DNA from: Planctomycetia bacterium | GTDB lineage: Bacteria > Planctomycetota > Planctomycetia > Gemmatales > Gemmataceae | Length of the DNA stretch: 54,507 bases | Assembly: GCA_005808665.1 (NCBI GenBank) | Contig: SYLG01000062.1 | Location: forward strand, 1-54,507 | Direction of reading: 5' to 3' | Part shown: piece after piece, positions 4,566 to 22,225 of the stretch | How the letters are laid out: each line of letters opens with the position of its first letter | How positions within the stretch are numbered: the first letter of the stretch is position 1 | Position numbers and translations under genes: made by a program | The notes under the pieces: generated by a model | Database searches by the model: none | What the model was told of the DNA's origin: nothing | Seen by the model: only the letters and a program-made list of their open reading frames with translations

Positions 4566-5585
4566 TCAATTGGTGGATTGGAGTCCTGAAATTTTCACGA
4601 TCTCTCCCTTGATCTGGAATATTTTCGGAGAGTTTCTGCTTCGGTAAAGGACTTCAAGGGACATTCCGTGTTCTCCGGTCAGAAGCAGGGCATATTCGGG
4701 CCTTTGCATCACGCCAAAATAAAAGAGGATCGAGGGGATAATAAACATCGGAAATAGGGCAACCAAAACAATGTAGTCGAGAAGCGAAACTTCACCCCGC
4801 AATTCCGCCTTGATGCCTATATAGTCTTCTGCGGAAATGGGTTTCGAGGGAAATTTGACAAAACCAATCCGCATCGTTTTGGTGAAATAGGCTCTTCCAT
4901 TGGGTTTGCGTTCCACATCCAGTTCTCCCCATGTTCCCAAAATAAAGGCCATAATCGACCAAAGAAACACGACGAGAATCAGGGAACTTGCAGAGAGGTG
5001 CATGGTTCCCAAAACAAAGGGAAGGACAAGGGGACCGAGCATAAAAATCCAAATGCCTTTTCGTAACCTTGGGGTAAAATGCGGGCCATAATGAAGGTGA
5101 ACGGGCTTGGCCGTTTTCCGCAATTTCTTGCCGGTGCGCAAATCAAATCCACACCGGGTGCAGACCAGGGTGCCTGAAACGAGTGAACCTGTGCATTCAG
5201 GGCACAAAAAATCCATTCCACCCGGCATGGCATAGGCCTTGCCATCGTCCTCCTGGGAGGTTTCCATATTCGGAATGATCGGAGCAAAGGGGGGAGGGGC
5301 GGTTTCCCCGTTGATGGTCGGAGGAGGTTTTACCTTGCGGTTGGAAGTCGCCCTGGATTTCTTTTTTTTTCCGGAATCCATCCCATTTTCAAAGGGATTG
5401 TCTGCGGGAATGACAGGATTTTCGGAAGGCTCTTGGGAAGGCTTTTCCAGGACAGAAGCTTCAAACCCGGGGAGGTTCCGAAGGTCCACAAGGGACCCAC
5501 AATCCCCACATCGAACCTTTGGCTTGCCGGGGGAAAGGCTTGGATCAAGGGCGTTGCCACAACCTGTACACAAAAACGAAACCAT
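4566..5585 (-). CDS. Zinc-ribbon membrane protein
   Basis: This 339-residue protein has two cysteine clusters. The first is at the N-terminus (CTGCG and CGDCG, residues 6-29), the second near residue 135 (CPEC and CTRCGFDLRTGKK). Both look like zinc ribbons. They are separated by a Pro/Lys-rich linker and followed by at least three hydrophobic helices (around IWIFMLGPLVLPFVLG, LILVVFLWSIMAFILG and DYIVLVALFPMFIIPS). Such proteins are common in planctomycetes and have no assigned function. The ATG at 5585 is chosen over a TTG 15 nt upstream because it begins directly before the first zinc ribbon. The gene follows the large membrane-protein gene by 24 nt and is probably in the same operon. Confidence 0.8.
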   Translation of the reverse strand: MVSFLCTGCGNALDPSLSPGKPKVRCGDCGSLVDLRNLPGFEASVLEKPSQEPSENPVIPADNPFENGMDSGKKKKSRATSNRKVKPPPTINGETAPPPFAPIIPNMETSQEDDGKAYAMPGGMDFLCPECTGSLVSGTLVCTRCGFDLRTGKKLRKTAKPVHLHYGPHFTPRLRKGIWIFMLGPLVLPFVLGTMHLSASSLILVVFLWSIMAFILGTWGELDVERKPNGRAYFTKTMRIGFVKFPSKPISAEDYIGIKAELRGEVSLLDYIVLVALFPMFIIPSILFYFGVMQRPEYALLLTGEHGMSLEVLYRSRNSPKIFQIKGEIVKISGLQSTN

Positions 5586-5609
5586 TAGGGAAGGCCTCAA
5601 AGAATTGGA

Positions 5610-8600
5610 CTAGGACGCCCTGGGGATTTCGTGGGCGATGGGGAGAAAAACAAGCCTTGGGCGAACCAAAGGAAGCAGGTTCAAGGCAACACCCCCTGCA
5701 AAAAGTGGTTCGCAACTTGGGGTTTTCGCCTCGGCTTCAAACCAACTGACAAAATCCTTCCATCCCATTTGGACCGATCCAAAAATCATGGTGGCTGCGG
5801 GCAGTGGCCTTGGAATGCGGGAATCGCGCCTTATGGACATGATCCTTTCGCCTGACCAGTCGGTGCGCAACCGGGCAGGGGAGTCGGATGCCTCTTCAGG
5901 AAACAGGGTGATGGCCCGATCCACCACCGAGGCCCGAATGAACCCTTTGGGCAACCCGGCTCCCAGATGTTCGTTGGAAACCCCAATGCCCATTTGGGTG
6001 AAAAACCAGGCAAGAGAGGCAGTAAGGGACCTGTTTGCCTCGGGGGGAAGAAGGGCTAACCAGGCGGGATTACCGACCCGGGCAAAAAGTCGGCTCCCCA
6101 TGAACTCCATGTCGATTGCAAGGGGTTCGTTATCGGGATTTTTCCCCGGATGGAACCAATCGAGGAGGATGACGATCCGATTTGTTGCCAATAAAGGGGT
6201 TCGGACAGAAAAACCCGTAGGAGGAATTCCGAAAGGGTCTTCCAAGGATGAATCCTTTGGCAAGGCCACCTCGGTCATGAGATTTTGCCATCCAACACAC
6301 CGACCAAGGATATCACAAAACTGCCGCCTGGTCAGTCTGGCCAAGTCTTCGCATATCTCGCCGATTTCTCTCAGGCAAGCCCGCTCCAGACGAAAGTCCA
6401 TCCGGGTGGTGCGCAAATCGCAGGCCTTTCGCAACCTCCTGTAAACGGCGGGAATGGTGCCGGCATGGAAACCCGGTTCAAGGAGCTCACGCAGGGTTTC
6501 GCCTTGAGGCCCCACCATTGCCGGGGGCATCCTTTTTGGCCTGTTGGCCTCATAGAGCCTCCAGTTTTCACGAAACTCCCAAAAGAAAAACCCAAAGGCC
6601 CCCGGGATGATGAAGTCAATCACCCAAACCAGGGCTTCCACGAGAAAAAAGTTAAGCGTGCCGTCCAAACCCAGGTGCAATGGCGGACCAATGACCGGGT
6701 AAAAAATCTTCATGGCAACAAAGCAAACGGGCAGTTTGACCGGGTTAAGGAAGGGTTCGATGACCACCATGAAGGAAAACCGGAGGGTATATCCCAGGGG
6801 AAACCAAAGCGACTGGAGCAACGCCTGCATGGCGATCCAGAGTCCTTCATCTTTTTGCCGGACGGAAATCCATTCTTCGACAAGGAGAATCAGGCCATCA
6901 ATTCCGGTCAGCATTTTTTTGAGGAAGCCCTGCCAAAGCAATATGGCCCCGCCAAGAAGGCCATTACCCAAATGGGAGAAGGCCTTTTTAAGGGAGCGTA
7001 TGATGAGGGCCCCTGCCATAAGGCCCGGTCTCATATTGAGCAGGACATTGAAAATGACAAACCAAAGGATCCAACCGGCCAGTTCCTCAAACCAAAGTGG
7101 TTGAAAATACCGCATTCCCATGATGGCGAGGACCGGTTTCACGCCATAGCTCAGGACCCAACTCAAAGGCTCAAGCACCAAGCTTTGGACCATTTCGGAG
7201 GAGGAGACCTTCCTGGGCAGATCCCAAAAAGTCCAAGTCAGAAAATCGAGGGTGCGGCCCAGGATGTGGCCGGTCATGAGCCTTACCCGGGGCCGGGCAA
7301 CAAACACCAGGACCACCGTTCCGACGGCCGCGGAAATGACCCAAAGTTCGGCCATATCCCGGTCGGGGGTAATGGGGCCGAGGTTATGGTGTTCAAGCGT
7401 TTTGAACAAGTGATAGATGAAAGCGACCACCACAAAGGCGGTAAGGTAGGGAAATAGGACAAAAAGGGAAATAAATCGTCCGATCCCCGTTCCAAAGGAA
7501 GCCGCCGTGGCCCTTTCAAGCATGGCCCCATAGAGTTCGCTGGGTTGGTAAACGCCTTCCAAAAGGGTTGCCAGGCGACGATCCAGGCGAAGCAGTTCAT
7601 CCCCGCGAACCCACTGGGCAAAGTTTGCCAGGTCGGGCATCTTCACGGGACTAACGGCAAGGGAATCGCGCAAGTTCTGGAAGGTTAGGAACCCCTGTTC
7701 CAAAATGCGATCAATGAGCGTTTCGACAATCTGTCCCAAGGCAAGTTGGCCCAGTTGACTGGGAGGGGCAAATCCGGCATCCTTGAGGGCTTCATAAAGG
7801 ACTGGTCCAATCTGGACACGGACTTCCGTTTCATTGACCAGGCGGGCCTTCCGCAGAAGTCCTTCCACGCTTTGCCGGGCGGAGTTTTCTATGCGGGTAA
7901 AGGTCAGGTGTTGTTGGGCCAGGCGCAAAAACCGGGTGGCCCGGATCACATCCACCAGAATCCTCGGCCGCCTGAGGCGGCTCGTTCCCCCGGAAAGGAT
8001 CCAGCCCATGAGGTCCAGCGTCTGGGGGGGACTGATCACATCCTCGTAAATGTTTTCCAGTTCCCGCAGGAGTTTTTCTTCCCGGTTTTTATACCCTTGG
8101 TCGGCCTTCTCCAAAAGCGGATCGAGGACAGCCGTCGCTTCCCCGATTTGATTTTCCTCCAGGCCCAGACGCTGGTGGATCCCCTGAACCATTTGCCTCA
8201 GGTGGGAACATGCCATGATTCTGGCCGGGTTACTTTTATGGGCAGGGGCAACACGGGAAGCCCGAACCCGCAGGATGGCGGCATCCACCAGGTTGCCCTT
8301 TTCGAGGGATTGATCCGCCAACCGTTGCAGCCGGATGAAGTATTGATTGGCTTCGGACTGAAGGTCATCCTCATCCGAGGCGGCCTCCAACCATGGAGCA
8401 AGCCTTGAACGGTTGAGGAGATCCCTGACGGGCAGATCATCCCCAAGTGCCGCATAGATTTCGTCTTGTTTGGCGGGGGAAAGTGTGGGAAACCAATAGC
8501 CTGTGGCCTGGGGACTAAAACAGCGTAGCCCCAAAAACACCAAGGCAAACTCATGCAGGATCATGGGGTAAGCAGAATCGGGAAGAACGCATTTCTCCCG

Positions 8601-12613: not shown

Positions 12614-14131
12614 CTAGCGAAACCTGTTGGCAACGCAAGCCAGAACCTCAAGTTTCGCCCTTGCAACCTCCAAAGAGGATACGGGGTTGTCCGCAAAAGT
12701 GGCAAAACCGCAATCGGGATGAAGGGCGACCACCCGGTCGGCTCCGAAGAGGTCAAAAGCCTCTTCAACCCTTTTCATGATAGCCGATTCGGATTCGATT
12801 TCCATTGTTTTGGGGTTAACCAACCCCAGGCCCAGTTTCGTCTGCTTGGGCAAATCCCGGAGAACTTTCATTTCGCCCGCCCTTGGAGTCGAAAATTCCA
12901 GGAGCAGCATTCCGACTGGAACTTTGGAAAACAGCTCCACCAAGGGTTCATAATCGCCGGATAAAGCTACGGATTCATCGCGGGACCAGTTTCCGCGACA
13001 AACATGAATCGCCAATCGTTCCCTTGGAAATCCAGCAAGGGTTTGAACCAGAATCGACCGGGCAAACTCCAGTTCCTCCTCCTTGGGAAGCCTTCCCGAA
13101 AGGGCCCCGCACATGAAACTTCGGCGTTTTTTCGGTTGGGCAAGGACCACTTCCGTGAGGACGGGTTCATCAATCTGGACCAAGGTAGCCCCGTGGGCCA
13201 GCAAATCCTCTATTTCAGCCCTTAATAGGCGGATTACATCCGCCGCCAGGGCTTCCCGCTCCTTGTATACCTTTTCCGAAAGGCATTCAAGGAAAAGGGT
13301 CCGGGTAAGCAAATAGGGGCCGGGTAAGGCAACCTTTATGGGCCTGTCGGTCACGGTACGCAAAAAGGCCAATTCCTGTAATGCCAAAGGCCGATTCCTC
13401 ACCAAGGGACCCAAAAGGGCCGGGTGATGCACCTTTTCCGCAGGCACATCAAGCTGGGATAGTTCCGCCTTGAACTTGTCCGGATCGTCCACATAGGGCA
13501 GGAGATCGCTTACCGGAATAAGCCGACAACAGGAAAGCCTTCCCCCCACAAAACCCGAGTAAGTATCGCGGCGTTGTTCCCCGTCACTTAAAACATCCAC
13601 TCCCGCACGGTCCTGGGAAGATACCACCAGGCGCACCGCATCATCCGCGGCATTCTCAAATTCTTCTTCGGTGATCCGTCCTTCGAGTTTTTCATGAAGC
13701 ATGCGCAAAAGCCAGGCGGGCCTAGGCATGGAACCGATGCCAAATACCGCCAATTTGGGCAATTCGGGAACCCACTGATCCCGGCGAGGGAGAGGCACAA
13801 ACCTGTCCCCGACCGGGTTGACTACCCCGGGCAGTTTTTGGCGTTTGGGAGCGACCTTTCCTTCAAGGAACACCTGCCGTTCGGCAAGGGTTCCCTTTAC
13901 AACGAGGAAATGGTGGACCGTTTCCAAAGAGGTTACCTCGGTACGATACTCCAAAAGGTCATTTCCCGTGAGCCGACTCCACGAAGGAAGGTCCTCCGCA
14001 ACCGATTTTTCCGTGCTTCTAAGGTGAAGCAGCTGCCCCCGTTCCAAAGGTCCAAGCTGCTGCCGGATGAGGATGAGCAGACCATTGCCACAGTCAAGGT
14101 CACCCCCGTCAAAGGATGCGTCGGGAATCAT
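12614..14131 (-). CDS. TusA-like / MetE-like fusion protein
   Basis: The 505-residue protein combines two domains. Residues about 1-75 resemble the TusA/SirA sulfur-carrier fold (GGDLDCGNGLLILIR, then RGQLLHLRSTE and LTGNDLLE), with the usual Cys-Pro replaced by Cys-Gly. Residues about 120-505 resemble the C-terminal catalytic barrel of cobalamin-independent methionine synthase and related methyltransferases (FGIGSMPRP near the start, VLSDGEQRRDTYSGF, VQIDEPVL). Likely zinc ligands are the His and Cys in IHVCRGNW, the Glu in LLEFST and the Cys in HPDCGFA. The full MetE N-terminal domain is absent, so a stand-alone MetE-like enzyme using a different methyl or thiol donor is likely. The ATG at 14131 is used; an upstream TTG at 14176 is possible. 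Confidence 0.82.
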   Translation of the reverse strand: MIPDASFDGGDLDCGNGLLILIRQQLGPLERGQLLHLRSTEKSVAEDLPSWSRLTGNDLLEYRTEVTSLETVHHFLVVKGTLAERQVFLEGKVAPKRQKLPGVVNPVGDRFVPLPRRDQWVPELPKLAVFGIGSMPRPAWLLRMLHEKLEGRITEEEFENAADDAVRLVVSSQDRAGVDVLSDGEQRRDTYSGFVGGRLSCCRLIPVSDLLPYVDDPDKFKAELSQLDVPAEKVHHPALLGPLVRNRPLALQELAFLRTVTDRPIKVALPGPYLLTRTLFLECLSEKVYKEREALAADVIRLLRAEIEDLLAHGATLVQIDEPVLTEVVLAQPKKRRSFMCGALSGRLPKEEELEFARSILVQTLAGFPRERLAIHVCRGNWSRDESVALSGDYEPLVELFSKVPVGMLLLEFSTPRAGEMKVLRDLPKQTKLGLGLVNPKTMEIESESAIMKRVEEAFDLFGADRVVALHPDCGFATFADNPVSSLEVARAKLEVLACVANRFR

Positions 14132-14379
14132 GGAAAGTGACCTGTCGCCCTCCGAAAAAACGCCGGAGTTTTCCAACTATTCTAGTCGTCCCGGAAAAAC
14201 CCTTCAAGTACCTTGAATTGGAGTCGATTTATGGTTTTTGATGTGGAAATATTTCTAGGTATTCTGGGGAACCATTTCGGAAAGCTGGCAAAAAATGGCG
14301 GCAAAATGCCCGTAGGCGAATCCCTATTGGTTGGTTTTCCGCTTGTCATTGAGTTCTGGCCAGACCCTCTTTTTTCAGG

Positions 14380-14922
14380 TTAACCCAAGTTACGCAGTTG
14401 GAGTGATTTTTTACGATTTTTTGGCCTTTTTTGGGACCCTGATTGTAGTTTTTCCCGGGAATTTGTAGTATGTCGAGTTCAAAACGGCCCGTAGTCCCGA
14501 CCAAGTTACTTGATATTGTCCGCTACTTGTGCGAATGTAACAAAGGAGTTTGGAACTATTCGCAGGTACTCTTGAGGACATTGGTACTCCCGATCTTTGC
14601 AGGCTGATTTGATTTTTACCGGGAAAACCCTGGGTTTTATGGGTCAATTTGCGTAACCTGGGTTATTGAATTTCCCTCTAGGGAGGGGTGGCAGGCGAAG
14701 CCTGACGGGGTCGTGCCTTAAAGAACACAACATTTGGAAGGAGGGGTGGTCCACTTTACGAACCACCCCGCCCTGACGGGCACCCCTCCAAGGAGGGGAA
14801 TAAGGAGGGGAATAATGGCTAATTCCCAGGGCGGATTTGTAGTCCCGTCGTTTGCAGCCTGATTTAACTTTTTCCCGGGATAAACACGGTTTTCATGGTC
14901 CCAACTGCGTAACTTGGGTTAA
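14380..14922. mobile_element. TIR element copy 1 (composite, TTAA duplications)
   Basis: The element spans 14384-14918. It starts CCCAAGTTACGCAG and ends in the inverted form CTGCGTAACTTGGG, with TTAA directly repeated at 14380-14383 and 14919-14922. An internal copy of the right end (GCGTAACCTGGGTTA at about 14651-14665) shows that a ~281-bp unit is followed by a hairpin-rich repeat (GGAGGGGTGGCAGGCG... ...CACCCCTCC, about 14680-14800) and a second right end. There is no open reading frame of note, so this is a non-autonomous, MITE-like element. The 4-bp YTAR duplications fit mobilisation by an IS5-type transposase. It is the inverted counterpart of the copy at 19.4 kb. Confidence 0.8.
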
Positions 14923-15457
14923 AGTCGGATTTTCAGGGTTCTATGGCATGATCAAATCAGGAGGGCATGACCACCTTCCCAATCCCATTTCGGTTTGGGA
15001 TGGTTTTTCAGGGACGACTAACAACGGGCATGGTATTGCGTTTGTTTTTATTGGATAAACTGAGGCGCAAAATATCCTCGAATGCCGCCCTTTGAGGCTT
15101 ACTTTTCGGGTTCCTAACGGTCGTGGCCGTTTATATTCCAATCCGGTTGGGAAGCCCCTTGGTGGCTTGGCTTTGGTATGCCCCGATTGGCACCACCGCA
15201 ACCGTGGGCATTACCCTTGGCTTGAATTCCCTGTTTGCAAAGGGCCTGTTTGCAAAGGGGTCAGGTTCAATATTCTGAACGATTCAAATTACTTCAACCG
15301 CAAGGTGGTAGAAAAGAAGGCCCCCTTCGCCTGGGAATCGTGCCAAAAATAAATGGCCTATGATTTAGGTCATGAATGGTCCTTGCCCAAAACGAGGAAG
15401 ACTAAAAAAGGGTAAATTTGGGTTTGGCGAACAATCTAATGGGACCCCTTTTTATTC
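14923..15457. other. Intergenic stretch downstream of element copy 1
   Basis: These 535 bases hold no gene I can support. The longest plus-strand frame (about 15092-15352, 86 codons) has no recognisable domain and no good ribosome-binding site. A 17-base motif at 15004-15020 (TTTTTCAGGGACGACTA) recurs in three other intergenic regions of the window. The octamer TTTGCAAAGGGG is doubled near 15235-15260. The stretch may be decayed mobile DNA. Confidence 0.45.
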
Positions 15458-16354
15458 TCAGGGAACCTCAACAAGTTCCCCTCCGGCTCGGGAGGCAAGG
15501 CTTTGCATGATTGGGGCGGCGGAATAATTCAGAAATTTGGCCGAGCCGTCCGCAAAAAGAAAATGAGCCCCATCGGAATGCACACTCCAGAAATGAAATG
15601 CACTGCATTGATTGGATAGTTTACCGCGTTCAAATTGAAATGGGCCGGATGGACAGGACTCGCAAAAAGAAGCCTTTGGACCATGGAGTTCATTGACCCC
15701 AAGCAAGTAATCCATTGATCCAAATCCATCTTGGCCTTCGCCGGAATACCACCAACCAAACCACATATCCGCACTTGGAGGCCGCTCCCCCACCATTAGG
15801 GTATTTGAGGAACCATCGCCAATATCGACCATTCGGATTTGAGAATCATAAAACAAAACGCCATCATTTGTTTTGTGGTTCCTGCCGGAAACCCCATGAT
15901 AGCTTGTAAGGGCAACCGAGACGCCGCGGTTTCTTGGTTTTTGCACACTATTCACTCGGGAATCCCCCGGACAGCCATACAGTTTTAGGGGAGTGCTTAT
16001 CCCTAAATGGGGAAGTTGGTAGGGAACCGCTGGGCGCGCATCGTACGCCTCCAAAGTCCTTTTCCAAAGGGCTTCCTGTTCAATAAAAGGCAGAAGTCTC
16101 CCCATCCAACTTATACCCCTCAAAGGCACACCCTCCTCCAAAGGGGTCCGGCCCATGGGAAACCGACCAAATTGGCCATGATGGACTTGCAGGGCCAGAC
16201 CCATTTGTTTCATATTGTTCAAACAGCCAAGGCGATCCGCGGCTCCACGGATTTTCTGAACCGCCGAAAGAATGAGGCCGAAAAGTACCCCGACAATGGC
16301 AATGACCACCAATAGTTCGATAAGAGTGAATCCGGTTCGAATCCTTTTGTTCAC
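15458..16354 (-). CDS. DUF1559 prepilin-like protein 2
   Basis: The 298-residue protein starts with GTG as [17 protein letters not shown], a type IV prepilin signal, followed by a hydrophobic helix. It has the conserved NNMKQMGLALQ segment, VDIGDGSSNTLMVGERPP, and the C-terminal DG box (FLFADGSAKFLNYSA). The GTG at 16354 is chosen because GGGAG lies at 16363-16367 and the prepilin N-terminus is then of normal length. It is the last gene of a four-gene minus-strand operon. It is paralogous to the protein at 52.4 kb, and both sit directly downstream of related membrane-anchored exported proteins. Confidence 0.92.
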   Translation of the reverse strand: MNKRIRTGFTLIELLVVIAIVGVLFGLILSAVQKIRGAADRLGCLNNMKQMGLALQVHHGQFGRFPMGRTPLEEGVPLRGISWMGRLLPFIEQEALWKRTLEAYDARPAVPYQLPHLGISTPLKLYGCPGDSRVNSVQKPRNRGVSVALTSYHGVSGRNHKTNDGVLFYDSQIRMVDIGDGSSNTLMVGERPPSADMWFGWWYSGEGQDGFGSMDYLLGVNELHGPKASFCESCPSGPFQFERGKLSNQCSAFHFWSVHSDGAHFLFADGSAKFLNYSAAPIMQSLASRAGGELVEVP

Positions 16355-16426
16355 AAAAAAACACTCCCATTGAACCAACAACAGGATCCGCAAGGGGCAT
16401 CCCTGCAGGGGATACCCCAAACAGGA

Positions 16427-17458
16427 TTACCCGGACCCCCGCCTTTTCATAAACACAAATATCCCGCCAAAAAATAAAGCCGAAACAATTCCCCAAGCAT
16501 AAAGAGGAACACTCCACCCGCCCGGTTCCGAAGGTTCGGCATAACCAAAGTCGGATAATTGAAATTCATTCAAAGGAATATCATCGTAAGAATATTTAAT
16601 ATTTGTTTTAGATAACGCATTTTGATCTACGCCTTCTTGTTTTGTTATCTTCCAAATTGTTTCTAATTCAATATTGACAGGCAAGTCATTATCGAATGAT
16701 ATTTTTTTGATAGCAGTGAAAAAGTGCTTGACATTATCGATGTTACAAGTCTGTTTCATTCTTACAGGAATAAAACCGTTTGTTTTGTCCAGTTCCAATT
16801 CGGTCTGAATCGTTCCATTAACCTTATCGGCTGGTGCCTTGTGGGAAAGGGTGAAAAACTGTCGGCTATCGGTTTCGGTGACCTTCAGGATAACACAATC
16901 GGGGTGGGTCTCTTTATCGGTAATTGAAAAATAGGTTTGAAACAACCCCGGAATAGTTCCATAACCGCTTGTTTTCTGCTGGGAGGGCCTACGATAAGAG
17001 ACGGAAAAACCGACATCCTTTGTGTCCAGATCGGAGGCGGAAGAATGCGCCAATCCGGTGATAAACCAGGGCTTTCCTATTTTTTTCGCGATTTCAAAAC
17101 AATACTTGTCGTTAATGATGATTCCATAGCTACTTGGGGCGTTGGTTGAATTTTTCCCAATTCTTTCACTTGTATAGAAATAACAATCTAATTCTTTATT
17201 TGTTTTTATTGTATTTAAAATACTCCAAACAGGTTCATCACCACTCTCTATTAAATTAAAATATTCTTTTTTTTCTTGCCTTTTTAAAAACTTGGCAGAT
17301 GCGAATTTTTCCTGTTTTTGTTTCACCGCCGCGATGGCCACATCCCATTTTTGCCGGTTAATTTTTTCATCCGACCCTTGCAAGGGCACCATTTGCAAGG
17401 ACACCAAAAGTAAAATGCCAACCATGCCAATCCCTCCCAACCGGCAAACCCTGGCCAT
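16427..17458 (-). CDS. Exported protein with C-terminal membrane anchor
   Basis: The 343-residue protein has an N-terminal signal segment (GGIGMVGILLLVSLQMVPLQG), a polar, beta-rich body of about 270 residues, and a C-terminal block of acidic FGYAEPSEPGG, a hydrophobic helix (YAWGIVSALFFGGIFVF) and a basic tail (MKRRGSG). That tripartite C-terminus looks like a membrane anchor or sorting signal. The gene is AT-rich compared with its neighbours. The ATG at 17458 lies 5 nt after the previous stop; an ATG at 17500 overlapping the previous gene is an alternative. A paralogue lies at 51.4 kb, also followed by a DUF1559 gene. Function unknown. Confidence 0.75.
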   Translation of the reverse strand: MARVCRLGGIGMVGILLLVSLQMVPLQGSDEKINRQKWDVAIAAVKQKQEKFASAKFLKRQEKKEYFNLIESGDEPVWSILNTIKTNKELDCYFYTSERIGKNSTNAPSSYGIIINDKYCFEIAKKIGKPWFITGLAHSSASDLDTKDVGFSVSYRRPSQQKTSGYGTIPGLFQTYFSITDKETHPDCVILKVTETDSRQFFTLSHKAPADKVNGTIQTELELDKTNGFIPVRMKQTCNIDNVKHFFTAIKKISFDNDLPVNIELETIWKITKQEGVDQNALSKTNIKYSYDDIPLNEFQLSDFGYAEPSEPGGWSVPLYAWGIVSALFFGGIFVFMKRRGSG

Positions 17459-17462
17459 TCCC

Positions 17463-17759
17463 CTAGTTGCACTTACAAGCGCAAACGATAATGATCTCAT
17501 CATCCCTGTTGATTGACTTCGTTCCCTTGATGCAGGCAAAAACTAAATCCGGGTCCGGAGCGGTGTCCACACACCGACCCGTGCAACTACAAAAATTGGG
17601 ATGATCCGGTCCGACATTGTTATTCTGCTGCGGGTAGCACTCGTTGAGGATCACATCTGCCATTACATGGATCGCCCCAAAAACGGGATGCGTCGCAAAC
17701 ACAAAAAACAGGCTTGCGAAAAAGAGCCCGCCGAAAGCATGGCATACGAATTTCGCCAT
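17463..17759 (-). CDS. Small exported cysteine-rich peptide
   Basis: The 98-residue product has a signal peptide (MAKFVCHAFGGLFFASLFFVFATHPVFG) and a mature part of about 65 residues with eight cysteines, clustered as NECYP, FCSCTGRC, FACIKG and VCACKC at the very end. This spacing suggests a disulfide-bonded or metal-binding exported peptide. The ATG at 17759 has a GAGGAG site, and its upstream gene ends 2 nt before it, so translational coupling is likely. It lies directly after a MauE-DUF1573 gene, whose relatives act in cysteine maturation of partner proteins. No family recognised. Confidence 0.75.
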   Translation of the reverse strand: MAKFVCHAFGGLFFASLFFVFATHPVFGAIHVMADVILNECYPQQNNNVGPDHPNFCSCTGRCVDTAPDPDLVFACIKGTKSINRDDEIIIVCACKCN

Positions 17760-17760
17760 T

Positions 17761-18609
17761 TCAAAACTCCTCATTAAGGGTTGTGATTGAACCAAAAAAA
17801 TACCCAACGATCGGGCTAAAGCCAGGGGATTCACAATAGAGGGTATACTGCTGCAGGAACGCTCCAGGGGATCCTTTGAACTTCGTATGTATTTCTATCT
17901 CTTTTTGATCTCCAGGGTTTAATTCAATAGGAAAATCCTCCATCGGAAAAACACAGCCGCAGGATGCGCTAACCCCGATTACCCTGGCGATTTTTAACGA
18001 ATTATTCGATATTTTTACCCGAAAGGTATTCCCCTCATTCAGGCTTCCCCCGCCAATTGCCGTGTATTGGGGATGAATGGAAATGGGCCTACCCCGTAAG
18101 GTCAAAATTGTAGATTCGAAGCCCCTTTGAAGGTAGATCATTTGTCCAATAACAAAGGTAACAAACAATAAAAATCCAATTACTACAGGTTTTTTTGTGA
18201 TTTCGATAACTTGTGTTGTTTTTGAAGTATTTTGGTTTGCAAACATTTTGACTTTAACCATCAAAAACAATGTTGCGGAAAAATCAAAAATCATGGTTGC
18301 CCATGGACTGACCTTTATTCTGCCAAAGCAGCCACAGGAACTTTCGCCATTAAAGGCAAAAAACAAACTGACAAAGCCAAAAACCAGGAACAGGGCAGTG
18401 GATGCCCTTTCTACAAAAAACAATTGGTATCGGATTACAAGCAAAAAACCAAACACCAACTCGATTGCCGCTATAAAATATTTTAAATTTGGATTACTGT
18501 AAAATAGGTAAATGTCGGATGGGGCACTGTCAGAAATTTTTGACAACGCAGAAAACAGCAAGACCAAACCCACAAATTGGGAACCAAGCCGAGCAATTCG
18601 ATAGGTCAT
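17761..18609 (-). CDS. MauE-like membrane domain fused to DUF1573
   Basis: The 282-residue protein has four predicted membrane helices in the first ~125 residues, with the MauE/DoxX-like signature SSCGCFGRIKVSPW, then another helix (VVIGFLLFVTFVIGQMIYL). A C-terminal DUF1573 domain follows, with SASCGCVFPMEDFP and a FRVKISNNS beta-sandwich motif. MauE-type proteins assist disulfide formation or maturation of methylamine dehydrogenase; the fusion to DUF1573 is widespread in planctomycetes and Bacteroidetes. The ATG at 18609 has GGAGGTG 7 nt upstream and a near-consensus promoter at 18632-18660. It heads the operon and probably acts on the Cys-rich peptide encoded next. Confidence 0.85.
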   Translation of the reverse strand: MTYRIARLGSQFVGLVLLFSALSKISDSAPSDIYLFYSNPNLKYFIAAIELVFGFLLVIRYQLFFVERASTALFLVFGFVSLFFAFNGESSCGCFGRIKVSPWATMIFDFSATLFLMVKVKMFANQNTSKTTQVIEITKKPVVIGFLLFVTFVIGQMIYLQRGFESTILTLRGRPISIHPQYTAIGGGSLNEGNTFRVKISNNSLKIARVIGVSASCGCVFPMEDFPIELNPGDQKEIEIHTKFKGSPGAFLQQYTLYCESPGFSPIVGYFFGSITTLNEEF

Positions 18610-18631
18610 CGCCCACCTCCTACCAATCTGC

Positions 18632-18660
18632 ATGATAACTCCATCTTTGGCAATTGTCCA
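18632..18660 (-). promoter_or_regulatory. Sigma70-type promoter of the MauE-DUF1573 operon
   Basis: On the minus strand TGGACA (18660-18655) and TATCAT (18637-18632) are separated by 17 nt. Each hexamer differs from consensus at one position. Transcription would begin about 15-20 nt before the ATG at 18609, leaving just enough leader for the GGAGGTG ribosome-binding site. Confidence 0.55.
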
Positions 18661-18870
18661 GCACCCATTGGCTATATTTTTTGGATTTTTCTTGTATTTG
18701 CAGATGAATATCGAACAGGGGCCAATGTCAGCTTATGGGCACCTGGTGCTTGGTTTTGTCTAGCCCGGATTATTCATGGATTTTGGATTAATTTGGTCCT
18801 TAAATGTATCTAATATATTGTATCTAATATGTCGATATAAAACAACTTAAGTAAAACAACGAGGCCTGTT

Positions 18871-20487
18871 ATGATCCAGCAGCGTGTAACTGGAAAAAGC
18901 CAAACGGAATGGAATCCGATTTCTTTTGGTTTTCATCCCCGGAAGGATGTTGTTGTCGAGGTAAGCGATAAGCAGTTGTCCAGCGATGGCGGGTTGATTG
19001 CCATCTGGGAGTTTGATAACCAGATCGGTTTCACCAATCGGTTTTCCAAAAGGCTTTGTGATAAGCGTCGAGGGAAGTCCAGGCACACCCTTCATGAGAT
19101 GCTTGTGAGCCGGATTTACGGCTTTTTGGGTGGATACACCGATCAGAACGACCACCAACAATTGCGGTTTGACCCGGTTTTCAAGATCGTGGCAGGGAGG
19201 GATCCCAAGGATGCCCCTTTGGCAAGTCAATCGAGTTTATCCCGGTTTGAAAACCAGGTGACAATCGATGACCTGAAGGCGATTATTGCGGAAATTACCA
19301 GGGAATGGGCGGAAAGTTTCCAGGAGCAGCCATCCCGGGTCACATTGGATATTGATGCAGTCGATGACCCGGTCCATGGCCAGCAACCGCTCAGCATGTT
19401 TCATGGGTTCTAGCCCAAGTTACGCAGTTAGGACCATGAAAGCCCGGTTTTTCCCGGGAATAAGTTAAATCAGCCTTAAAAAGTCGGGGCTACAAATCCC
19501 CTCCAGGGATGATCCGTTATTCCCCTCCATGGAGGGGTGCCCGTCAGGGCGGGGTGGGTCTTAAAGTGGCCCTCCCTCCCCATTTTGGGTTTCTCAAAGG
19601 CACCACCCCGTCAGGCTTCGCCTGCCACCCCTCCAAAGAGGGGAATTAAACCAGGTTACGCAGTTGGGACCCTGAAAACACAGGATTTCCCGGGAAAAAG
19701 TCAAATCAGCCTGCAAAATTCGGAACTGCTAATCCTCACCAGGGATCCTTCGAACAATAGCAAACTCCCTTGTAAAAATCGCACAAGTACTTGCCAAAAT
19801 CAAGGAGGTTGGTCGGGACTACGGGCCGTTTTGAACTCGACATACTCCAAATTCCCGGGAAAAACCACAATCCTGGTCCCAAAATGGACCAATAAATCGT
19901 AAAAAATCACTCCACCTGCGTAACTTGGGCTAGGAACAATACCCATACCTCCCGCTTTTTATTTCGCATGCGGAAACGAAAATATTCGTGTCGGGCTGGT
20001 TGAGGGCTGGAGTTGTACCCGCCTCTTCGGGAGCGGGAGATGATCTGGCCCATATGCGATTTACGATGATTACGCAATGCGTGGGGATGCGGAAAACCGG
20101 AACAAGGAGATCAAGAACGGACTTGGGATGGATCGGTTGAGTGATTGCCGGTTCATTGCCAACTTTTTCCGGTTGTTGATGTCGCTGTTGTCCCACAATC
20201 TTTTGGTCCGGATGAGGAACCGGATTCAGATTCCGGACCGGGAAACCGAACCGGGTCCAATCCCGCAGGAATCCCTGCCGGGCCCGGACCGTATGCGGTT
20301 TCAAAGGGATAGGCGAAAGCGGGATCCCCTTGGAAGGGCGCATCCCCAAACAAGGAGGGACAAGTTTATCAAGGTAGCCGTGGAAGTGGTATCCTCAAAT
20401 CGGAGGATCGTGATCCGGATGACTGCGAATTGGCCGTACCTGGAATTGTTCCAAAAGATCTCCCGGTCGATATTTTCGTTTGGCTAA
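18871..20487 (+). pseudogene. IS1380-family transposase, interrupted and deleted
   Basis: The N-terminal part (18871-19413, 180 codons) matches IS1380-type DDE transposases, including the first Asp block LDIDAVDDPVHGQQPLSMFHGF. The reading stops at the target duplication of the TIR element at 19414-19929. After the element the same protein resumes (EQYPYLPLFISHAETK... GAGDDLAHM, from 19934). It then shifts frame at about 20055, and the C-terminal part (RRGDAENRNKEIKNGLGMDRLS onward) runs to 20487. About 120-150 residues with the second Asp are missing, so the gene is dead. The element inserted at or near a tyrosine codon of the conserved FHGFYEQY motif. Terminal repeats of the original IS were not identified. 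Confidence 0.85.
19410..19933. mobile_element. TIR element copy 2, inside IS1380 transposase
   Basis: The element occupies 19414-19929 (516 bp), starts CCCAAGTTACGCAG and ends CTGCGTAACTTGGG. It is flanked by a perfect direct repeat CTAG at 19410-19413 and 19930-19933. Its internal order is the reverse of copy 1: a short arm, a hairpin-rich repeat (about 19515-19645, containing GGAGGGGTGCCCGTCAGGG and CAGGCTTCGCCTGCC), an internal end (AGGTTACGCAGTTGGGA, about 19650), then the ~270-bp unit. Because the host gene is recognisable on both sides, this copy proves that the unit moves as a block with 4-bp duplications. Confidence 0.85.
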
Positions 20488-20664
20488 CTTGAATCAATCC
20501 GATATCCCGATTCCTCCCTGAAAAACATTCTGGGGGCAAGGGGGAGTTTTGGACATCGAAGAGGTTTCAACCCAATTTTAATCCATTTAAAGAGCTGATA
20601 TGGGTATAAATTGGCCGTAAAGGGAAACCAGATAGGATTTTGGAGAGGTCATGGATAATCCTTT

Positions 20665-21027
20665 CTAGTAACTGATACTTGGGACACCCTGGTCCATAAA
20701 TTCAACCAGTTTGGCACCACCCACGATCATGGCTCCGGCAATCAGTTCTGTCTCGTTGAGCTTTCGACGCTTGAAACAGGGAGAACAAACATAGATCTTG
20801 CCCCCTTCCCGGGCAAAGGAGGCCATCAGGTCCCGCAAGGAGGCAAATCCCTCTTCATGGATCCCCTCCGCACCCCCCACAACGGCAAGTCGGACCCCTT
20901 CGGTCGAAAGGAACACTACCGTTTCGCGTTCGGAACCGACCGCCGCATTGGCAACCACAAAGGCCACGGTGGCCCGATCGGGTTGTTCCGGACCAACAGT
21001 GAGGCTGATTACAAATCTGCCGGGCAT
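20665..21027 (-). CDS. DsrE-family protein
   Basis: The 120-residue protein has the DsrE/DsrF/YchN fold pattern: FVISLTVGPEQPDRATVAFVVANAA, then ETVVFLSTEGVRLAV and a GGKIYVCSPCFKRR segment with two cysteines in the position where family members carry their sulfur-accepting cysteine. DsrE-like proteins transfer sulfur or form heteromeric sulfur-relay complexes. The ATG at 21027 follows AAGGAG. It lies 43 nt downstream of a TusA-like gene, the usual partner in sulfur relay, which supports the call. Confidence 0.87.
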   Translation of the reverse strand: MPGRFVISLTVGPEQPDRATVAFVVANAAVGSERETVVFLSTEGVRLAVVGGAEGIHEEGFASLRDLMASFAREGGKIYVCSPCFKRRKLNETELIAGAMIVGGAKLVEFMDQGVPSISY

Positions 21028-21070: not shown

Positions 21071-21655
21071 TTAGGGATCAGATCGTTTCCTCAGGTCATA
21101 ACAAGGTGGCGAGGCATCAAGCAGGGTATGGCCCACCATCCTGAGCCAGGCAGGAATGTCCTCTGGTGCCCCGGGATCTGTGGCAATTACCCGGACTTGG
21201 GTCCCGGGAGGAAGCTCTTTCAGCTTTTGCCTCAATGCAAGGACAAGGTCGCCACAGCCCAAGTCGCCAAAATCGTAAACCACCAAGGGTGTAACCCTTT
21301 TTTGCCCGTTGGTACCTTCCTCCGGTACCTCCGCTCCAGCTGGGATTACAGCCTCCGCCAATAACCCACCCAGGTGACAGGGAAGTTTACACCGGTTGGA
21401 ATCTGCCTTGGCCCACGCCCGAAGGTAACAGTCCTTTCCCTTTAGCCATCGTGCAAGGTGGTTTTGGGTGGTAACCAGGTCACGCTTAAGCCCCTTGGCA
21501 GCACAGGCTAAACACCTTGGGCAGTCTTTCAACCCAAGAGCAACGGCACAAAGAACAGCATGATCACAAAGGGATTCCGAACAGGCCGGACAAGAGGAAC
21601 CAACCCATCGGGTGAGGGCCTCCAAAAGTTGCCGGGATTCGGTGGATTCCGCCAT
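21071..21655 (-). CDS. Cys-rich protein with C-terminal TusA-like domain
   Basis: The 194-residue protein has an N-terminal half rich in cysteines (CPACSESLC, CPRCLACAAKG, CYLRAW, CKLPCH), suggesting metal or cluster binding. Its C-terminal domain (about residues 115-185) resembles TusA: VYDFGDLGCGDLVLALRQKL, then GTQVRVIATDPGAPEDIPAW. The sulfur-carrying cysteine is kept, but the following proline is glycine, as in the TusA-MetE fusion at 12.6 kb. The ATG at 21655 is used; a TTG at 21688 would overlap the terminator. It is transcribed with the DsrE gene and probably works with it in sulfur transfer. Confidence 0.78.
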   Translation of the reverse strand: MAESTESRQLLEALTRWVGSSCPACSESLCDHAVLCAVALGLKDCPRCLACAAKGLKRDLVTTQNHLARWLKGKDCYLRAWAKADSNRCKLPCHLGGLLAEAVIPAGAEVPEEGTNGQKRVTPLVVYDFGDLGCGDLVLALRQKLKELPPGTQVRVIATDPGAPEDIPAWLRMVGHTLLDASPPCYDLRKRSDP

Positions 21656-21686
21656 ACCCAATGGTTCTTGATACAGGGTGGTTTGC

Positions 21687-21718
21687 AAAAAAAAGCCGCA
21701 CGGGAGAACCGCACGGCT
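21687..21718 (-). terminator. Rho-independent terminator of the ribosomal protein cluster
   Basis: On the minus strand AGCCGTGCGG and CCGTGCGGCT form a 10-bp stem (two G-U pairs) around a TTCTC loop, followed by eight T residues. It sits 28 nt after the rplQ stop, at the end of the whole cluster and before the TusA-like gene. Confidence 0.88.
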
Positions 21719-21745: not shown

Positions 21746-22225
21746 TTAGGCGTTTGCGGGAGCCGTAACCTTGGGAGCGGGAGCCGGTTTGGGAGCAATC
21801 AACTCGGGATTGATGAATTCAATGATGGCAAGCTCGCTGCCATCACCAATCCGGCGCTGGTGGATCTTCAGGATGCGGGTGTAACCGCCTGGGTGGCCGA
21901 CAAATTTGGGAGCCACCTCGTTAAAAAGCTTCTTGTAAACATTTGGCCTGAGCCAGGTTTTGGGGTTTTTCGCCGCTTCGGACTTTGAGTCGATGCCGCG
22001 GGTTGACATGGGCCCCAAAACGGTAACGGCCTCGCGCCTGGCGTGAAGGTCCCCGGCCCTGGCAATGGTAATCAATCGCTCGATGAAAGGCCGCAATTCC
22101 TTGGCCTTGGCCACGGTGGTGGTGATCCGGCCGTGCTCGATCAGGGCACAGGAGAGGTTCCGATTGAGGGCAAGCCGATGGGAAGAGTTCCGATTGAGCT
22201 TGCGGCCCGCCTTTAGGTGACGCAT
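21746..22225 (-). CDS. rplQ: 50S ribosomal protein L17
   Basis: L17 sits near the exit of the peptide tunnel of the large subunit. The N-terminus (MRHLKAGRKLNRNSSHR) and the TTVAKAKELRPFIERLIT block are diagnostic. At 159 residues it is longer than the usual 115-130 because of an Ala/Pro/Lys-rich C-terminal tail (APKPAPAPKVTAP). It is the last gene of the alpha operon, 48 nt after rpoA, and is followed by the terminator. Confidence 0.96.
   Translation of the reverse strand: MRHLKAGRKLNRNSSHRLALNRNLSCALIEHGRITTTVAKAKELRPFIERLITIARAGDLHARREAVTVLGPMSTRGIDSKSEAAKNPKTWLRPNVYKKLFNEVAPKFVGHPGGYTRILKIHQRRIGDGSELAIIEFINPELIAPKPAPAPKVTAPANA

Follow-up and report, generated by a model that had tools for sequence, protein, structure and literature searches.

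The analysed window, a stretch of 54,507 nucleotides from a Planctomycetia bacterium, encodes on its minus strand a TusA-MetE fusion protein of 505 amino acids (12614..14131, stop codon included). The reading frame starts with an ATG at 14131, is open throughout all 505 codons and ends with a stop codon at 12614-12616, while the plus strand over the same interval is broken by stops. The protein consists of a TusA2-type domain (residues 1-81, 13889..14131, minus), a linker of about 40 residues with low model confidence (13766..13888, minus), and a core MetE-like barrel without the folate domain that forms the N-terminal part of MetE (residues 123-505, 12617..13765, minus). Across 52 fusion rows, the linker between the domain matches measures 36-92 residues (middle value 52). 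The model of the full-length fusion has a mean pLDDT of only 60. The first-pass annotation had read a TusA-like domain and a MetE-like barrel in one chain, and the minus-strand frame, the Pfam match of the barrel and the structural matches of both halves bear this out. Judged from its recurrence, the fusion is not a chance reading frame: the barrel is encoded in 50 of 392 genomes of the phylum (matches at 290 bits or more) and in 34 of 102 genomes of the order (matches above 330 bits); most of those in the order are full-length fusions with 51-60% identity, so that the distribution in planctomycetes, which the annotation had proposed to check, proved to be recurrent. Literature searches found no published description of a TusA-barrel fusion or of its gene cluster.

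The TusA2 domain was modelled with a pLDDT of 80 in the order strand-helix-strand-helix-strand-strand. Its best six structural matches were all TusA/YeeD/SirA-like chains (Z 9.4-12.1), with values of Z 12.1, rmsd 2.0 and 75 aligned residues for 3lvj and Z 9.4 for 1dcj. Cys14 (codon 14090-14092, minus) is kept in 52/52 distinct TusA2 rows and lies in the motif DLDCGNG; the CPxP motif is absent. Because CG stands in place of the usual CPxP, the domain falls under both the Pfam TusA cut-off (15.6 vs 28.6 bits) and the NCBIfam TusA cut-off (16.4 vs 78 bits) by sequence. A predicted structure unlike TusA had been named as the outcome that would speak against the first reading, and the 3lvj-type matches show the contrary; the sulfur-carrier-type assignment stands as regards fold and invariant cysteine, whereas the domain is of an atypical CG type rather than the canonical CPxP type.

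The barrel matches Pfam Meth_synt_2 (E 2.4e-24, 86.7 bits against a cut-off of 21), and the best structural match of the full model is T. maritima MetE 1xdj (Z 26.6, rmsd 3.0, 297 residues aligned within 120-505). In the alignment of relatives, the zinc-type ligands His376 (13004..13006), Cys378 (12998..13000), Glu412 (12896..12898), and Cys474 (12710..12712; all minus) are each present in 63/63 distinct barrels, which leaves the His/Cys/Glu/Cys site of the earlier reading intact. The homocysteine-binding residues S134 (62/63), E185 (63/63), and D321 (63/63) are conserved as well, and both residue sets follow the list for MetE in PMC7857596. The folate-binding N-terminal half of MetE is missing: Meth_synt_1 overlapped the barrel weakly, over 49 residues (16.8 vs 27 bits), and the full-length MetE model TIGR01371 scored the fusion at 64 vs 930 bits. 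Like the core methionine synthases, the chain has one Meth_synt_2 barrel in which the zinc and homocysteine residues are kept. Its scores are below the cut-offs of PRK00957 (83 vs 258 bits), PRK09121 (96 vs 392 bits), and PRK06052 (19.5 vs 387 bits; no match over the cut-off in 12 genomes). We take these to be the models of MesA, MesD, and MesC, respectively, the last label being uncertain given the control genomes in the 12-genome search, and the separation from the Mes families refers to these three scores.

Two further carrier genes lie upstream on the minus strand of the window. The DsrE-like protein (20665..21027; Pfam DsrE 1e-13) has the motif CSPCFK, and TusA1 (21071..21688; Pfam TusA 6.2e-10) joins a cysteine-rich N-terminal region to a CG-type TusA domain. 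This N-terminal region, which is found in 41 loci, has paired CxxC motifs, matches no Pfam family and may bind a metal. The gene at 21746-22225 reads as L17. Between the DsrE and fusion genes lies an insert of 6.5 kb (14132..20664, no strand assigned) that the three nearest relatives lack; the domain matches are 6542 bases apart in the window vs 58-80 bases in loci L032, L033, and L075, which indicates that the insert is recent. L033 (83% identical) is presumably from Singulisphaera. Two open reading frames of the insert were read as type IV pilin-like (15458-16420) and transposase-like (18871-19413).

We scanned 45 regions with per-domain profiles (the window, four named contigs and 40 regions picked from genomes with hits); having been picked for hits, they give cluster counts and not genome frequencies. 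The gene order is TusA1 - DsrE - TusA2 - MetE-like barrel. DsrE, TusA2, and the barrel are consecutive on one strand in 43 of the 45 regions, and TusA1 is also upstream in 41. The exceptions are L032, which begins at a contig end, L072 with the fusion only, L076 without TusA or DsrE, and L081 with TusA1 on the opposite strand. The carrier cysteines of TusA1 (49/49), which often has the cysteine-rich N-terminal region, and of DsrE (both residues 52/52) are as invariant as that of TusA2. TusA2 forms one chain with the barrel in 28 regions, none of which has OsmC; of the remaining 17 regions, 16 have a TusA2-OsmC fusion and a separate barrel protein. As fused barrels (34 fusions plus one partial row) form one well-supported group in a tree of 63 barrels and free barrels the other, TusA2 appears to have two alternative partners, OsmC or the barrel. 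The idea of an isolated fusion was rejected, given the conserved cluster and its two architectures. A same-strand transglutaminase-like gene occurs in 14 of the 45 regions (adjoining or within the cluster in L042, L044, L045, L046, L048, L051, L052, L054, L055, L079-L082, and L084) and a porin-like gene, a frequent companion of the former, in nine, which suggests an extracellular substrate; L038 has a transglutaminase-like gene on the opposite strand, with a start that reads as lipoprotein-like. A TusA-DsrE pair is also present on the Nocardioides sp. JS614 plasmid pNOCA01 (L116, 7337-8366), where the 16 kb retrieved have no annotated barrel, and such pairs may serve other end points elsewhere.

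Searching plasmids for the barrel (380 records) recovered three near-complete Paracoccus sequences, which carry the fusion at 51% identity over its whole length, and the other 12 rows among the plasmid matches listed were at or below 31%. The DsrE of the Paracoccus plasmids shows 66-67% identity. Plasmid pFER4 of P. ferrooxidans carries TusA, DsrE, two unknown genes, the fusion, selA, and trxB, and on the Paracoccus plasmids the fusion lies 77 bases before selA. Genes for a cysteine desulfurase, a transglutaminase, selB, a UGSC-motif protein with TGA, and tRNA-Sec lie near the pFER4 module, and on a P. versutus plasmid selA, selB, and trxB recur with 98-99% identity, together with the same tRNA-Sec. 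By gene content, the module on these plasmids sits within a selenocysteine-decoding island, and the plasmid copies indicate that it can move between phyla. On one Paracoccus plasmid (L113, 9484-10053, minus) the annotation splits a UGSC-family gene into two hypothetical genes, its in-frame TGA having been read as a stop.

Cys341 of the motif FMCGAL (13109..13111, minus) distinguishes the cluster barrels. It lies in a loop on the active-site face of the barrel, following the strand that carries D321-E322-P323, in a part of the model that is weak (residues 332-346 below pLDDT 50). The cysteine is present in 63/63 family barrels (TGA counted as Cys in two), as well as in two Paracoccus plasmid barrels and two further cluster barrels. 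None of ten non-cluster MetE-like paralogs of the same phylum has a cysteine at this position, although each of them can be aligned at the zinc and homocysteine sites; no TusA, DsrE, or OsmC was found in their fetched flanks.

Two genomes from a single order (G047 and G180, loci L051 and L080) have TGA as the Cys341 codon, and the frame is kept downstream. Since TGA here replaces an otherwise invariant cysteine, selenocysteine is the likely residue at position 341 of these barrels, which are sister rows in the barrel tree, so the two replacements may be one event. tRNA-Sec scored 73 bits in G047 and at best a borderline 47.5 bits in G180 (cut-off 47). Among 20 tested genomes, all with the system, 19 had strong tRNA-Sec matches (67 bits or more). 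A search for a SECIS hairpin 3' of the TGA in both loci gave folds no better than shuffles (z 0.11 and 0.15). Third-position identity over the next 14 codons after the TGA was 0.64 vs 0.41 overall, in the top 6% of windows. A TGA in L021 (G193) was dismissed as a selenocysteine case, as it lies before the barrel. Separately, one of the ten non-cluster MetE-like paralogs (L126, G158:C185, frame 5455-8130, minus) has an in-frame TGA at the zinc-ligand position Cys378 (FGFHLURGNQ); it comes from a single genome and could be a sequencing error. Two reviews of prokaryotic selenoproteomes, from 2022 and 2026, do not use the terms methionine synthase or MetE in their main text, and the Cys341 barrels would add a candidate selenoprotein family.

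The window's own genome encodes a MetH of 1242 aa (G000:C97), so the fusion was rejected as sole methionine synthase of this organism. Of 49 other genomes of the phylum that carry the system, 35 also have MetH, as do, from a comparison of two profile searches, 28 of 34 order genomes with the barrel; methionine synthesis is thus not the system's only reason to exist. A loss of homocysteine formation was also considered and set aside, with PF01053 in 101 of 102 order genomes and the family too broad to tell. The anammox-type family f47 is different: the MetH activation domain was found in 0/5 genomes tested and the MetH homocysteine domain PF02574 in 0/6, and the cluster barrel is the single Meth_synt_2 match in 6/6 (partial in G328). 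Domain absence in MAGs may reflect gaps, and the safest cases are G217 (one contig) and G122 (three contigs). One f47 genome encodes an octaheme protein that matches both the HAO-like chain 4n4j (613 bits), presumably of Kuenenia type, and hydrazine dehydrogenase 6hif (413 bits). With these two matches in one genome and CdhD, of the corrinoid iron-sulfur protein family, in 6/6, f47 is very likely an anammox family. According to PMC8027424, K. stuttgartiensis makes methionine although no pathway for it is annotated, and labelling points to a novel route.

We regard it as evenly balanced whether the cluster encodes a carrier-coupled methionine-synthase-type barrel, free of the folate domain and driven by sulfur carriers. 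Transfer between carrier and barrel, its direction and its product are what we infer. The zinc site would bind homocysteine or methionine; TusA2, on a flexible linker here and in an OsmC fusion elsewhere, would carry a sulfur species on Cys14 to the mouth of the barrel, where the sulfur would be exchanged with Cys341 or, in two genomes, with the likely selenocysteine at that position; loading or unloading of TusA2 would fall to DsrE and TusA1; and the net product would most likely be methionine. In the version that we favour, itself a doubtful one, TusA2 would bear a methyl disulfide (CH3-S-S-Cys, for example from methanethiol), zinc-bound homocysteine would take the methyl group and the leftover persulfide would pass to DsrE and TusA1. 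Such a transfer, helped by the persulfide as a good leaving group, could do without both folate and cobalamin. Among the genes of the cluster we recognised none for a methyl donor. A CoFeSP-type donor was rejected for the system at large, as CdhD is over the cut-off in 6 of 40 system genomes, all f47; for f47 CoFeSP is a fair alternative, and the barrel could take its methyl group from this protein, as proposed for MesB. The first-pass annotation had linked protein-bound sulfur to thiol methylation and hinted at methionine or thiol synthesis from it. The link has gained from the conserved cluster, the restriction of Cys341 to cluster barrels and the role of the barrel as sole MetE/MetH-type match in f47; with a full MetH in its own genome, the fusion would not be the only route to methionine there, and synthesis from bound sulfur is a possible function.

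The same barrel might instead be a plain core (Mes-like) methionine synthase with an ordinary methyl donor, in which TusA, DsrE, and OsmC protect or switch Cys341 by redox or supply homocysteine sulfur upstream. Intact zinc and homocysteine residues fit such an enzyme, as does its retention as sole MetE-type match in anammox-type genomes, which have CdhD, and the clusters do contain OsmC by Pfam match, a family of thiol-peroxidase type. We nevertheless hold this account to be doubtful: in one clade (34 fusion rows and one partial) the carrier is fused directly to the barrel and Cys341 is limited to cluster barrels, which together point to a carrier that touches the active site and not to a regulatory role. 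A reaction in reverse, with methionine or another donor methylating carrier-bound sulfur to methanethiol or methyl disulfide, would serve sulfide or persulfide detoxification or methyl-sulfur cycling. A second methionine synthase would be superfluous in most hosts, which already own MetH, OsmC and DsrE suit persulfide handling, and the porin-like and transglutaminase-like genes often found upstream hint at an outside substrate; it is unlikely all the same, as the anammox-type genomes without another MetE/MetH-type match would need the forward direction.

Selenium handling, with carriers that move selenide or methylated selenium and a barrel that methylates or demethylates selenols, draws on the Paracoccus plasmids, where selA follows the fusion and trxB, selB, tRNA-Sec, and the UGSC-motif selenoprotein gene are close by, and on the strong tRNA-Sec matches of nearly all tested system-bearing genomes. 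YedF, in which a SirA-like (TusA-type) domain is combined with a DsrE-like one, has likewise been linked to selenium (PMC5322559). We find this role very improbable, because a search of the fetched loci found no homolog of selB, UGSC, or trxB of the Paracoccus island, and the three selA matches are in loci fetched for tRNA-Sec rather than in cluster flanks.

Taken furthest, the carrier-driven reading would make the barrel a fifth folate-free methionine synthase family, supplied with sulfur or methyl-sulfur by TusA/DsrE carriers through a Cys/Sec at the barrel mouth. It would then be the methionine synthase that anammox bacteria seem to lack, and a selenoenzyme in some planctomycetes, a combination that we put forward tentatively. 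If right, it would link protein-bound sulfur relays (TusA, DsrE) with methionine synthases, fields so far separate, with a redox cysteine, naturally replaced by likely selenocysteine, as the contact point; it would name a testable candidate for unexplained anammox methionine synthesis and suggest methyl transfer using neither folate nor cobalamin.

Among known systems, cobalamin-independent methionine synthase (MetE) shares the catalytic barrel fold, as the match to 1xdj indicates, and has its N-terminal folate-binding half where the fusion has a TusA arm. MesA, MesB, MesC, and MesD (PMC7857596; core-MetE, PMC7005905) are described as lone MetE catalytic barrels without the folate domain and with the zinc and homocysteine residues of MetE, which the fusion barrel likewise has; the latter differs by Cys341, by its gene ties to TusA, DsrE, and OsmC, and by scores far under the NCBIfam cut-offs tested, and neither TusA nor sulfur carrier nor planctomyc occurs as a term in the main text of PMC7857596. 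TusA/YeeD/SirA-like carriers resemble TusA2 in fold (Z up to 12.1) and conserved cysteine, whereas TusA2 has CG for CPxP, a fused barrel and a low NCBIfam score. TusA-DsrE relays such as the DsrE-sHdr system described for Hyphomicrobium (PMC12423496) share the TusA and DsrE carrier chain; on inspection of the neighbourhoods no Hdr-like genes stood out, and the end point of the chain differs, being a MetE-like barrel in the present cluster.
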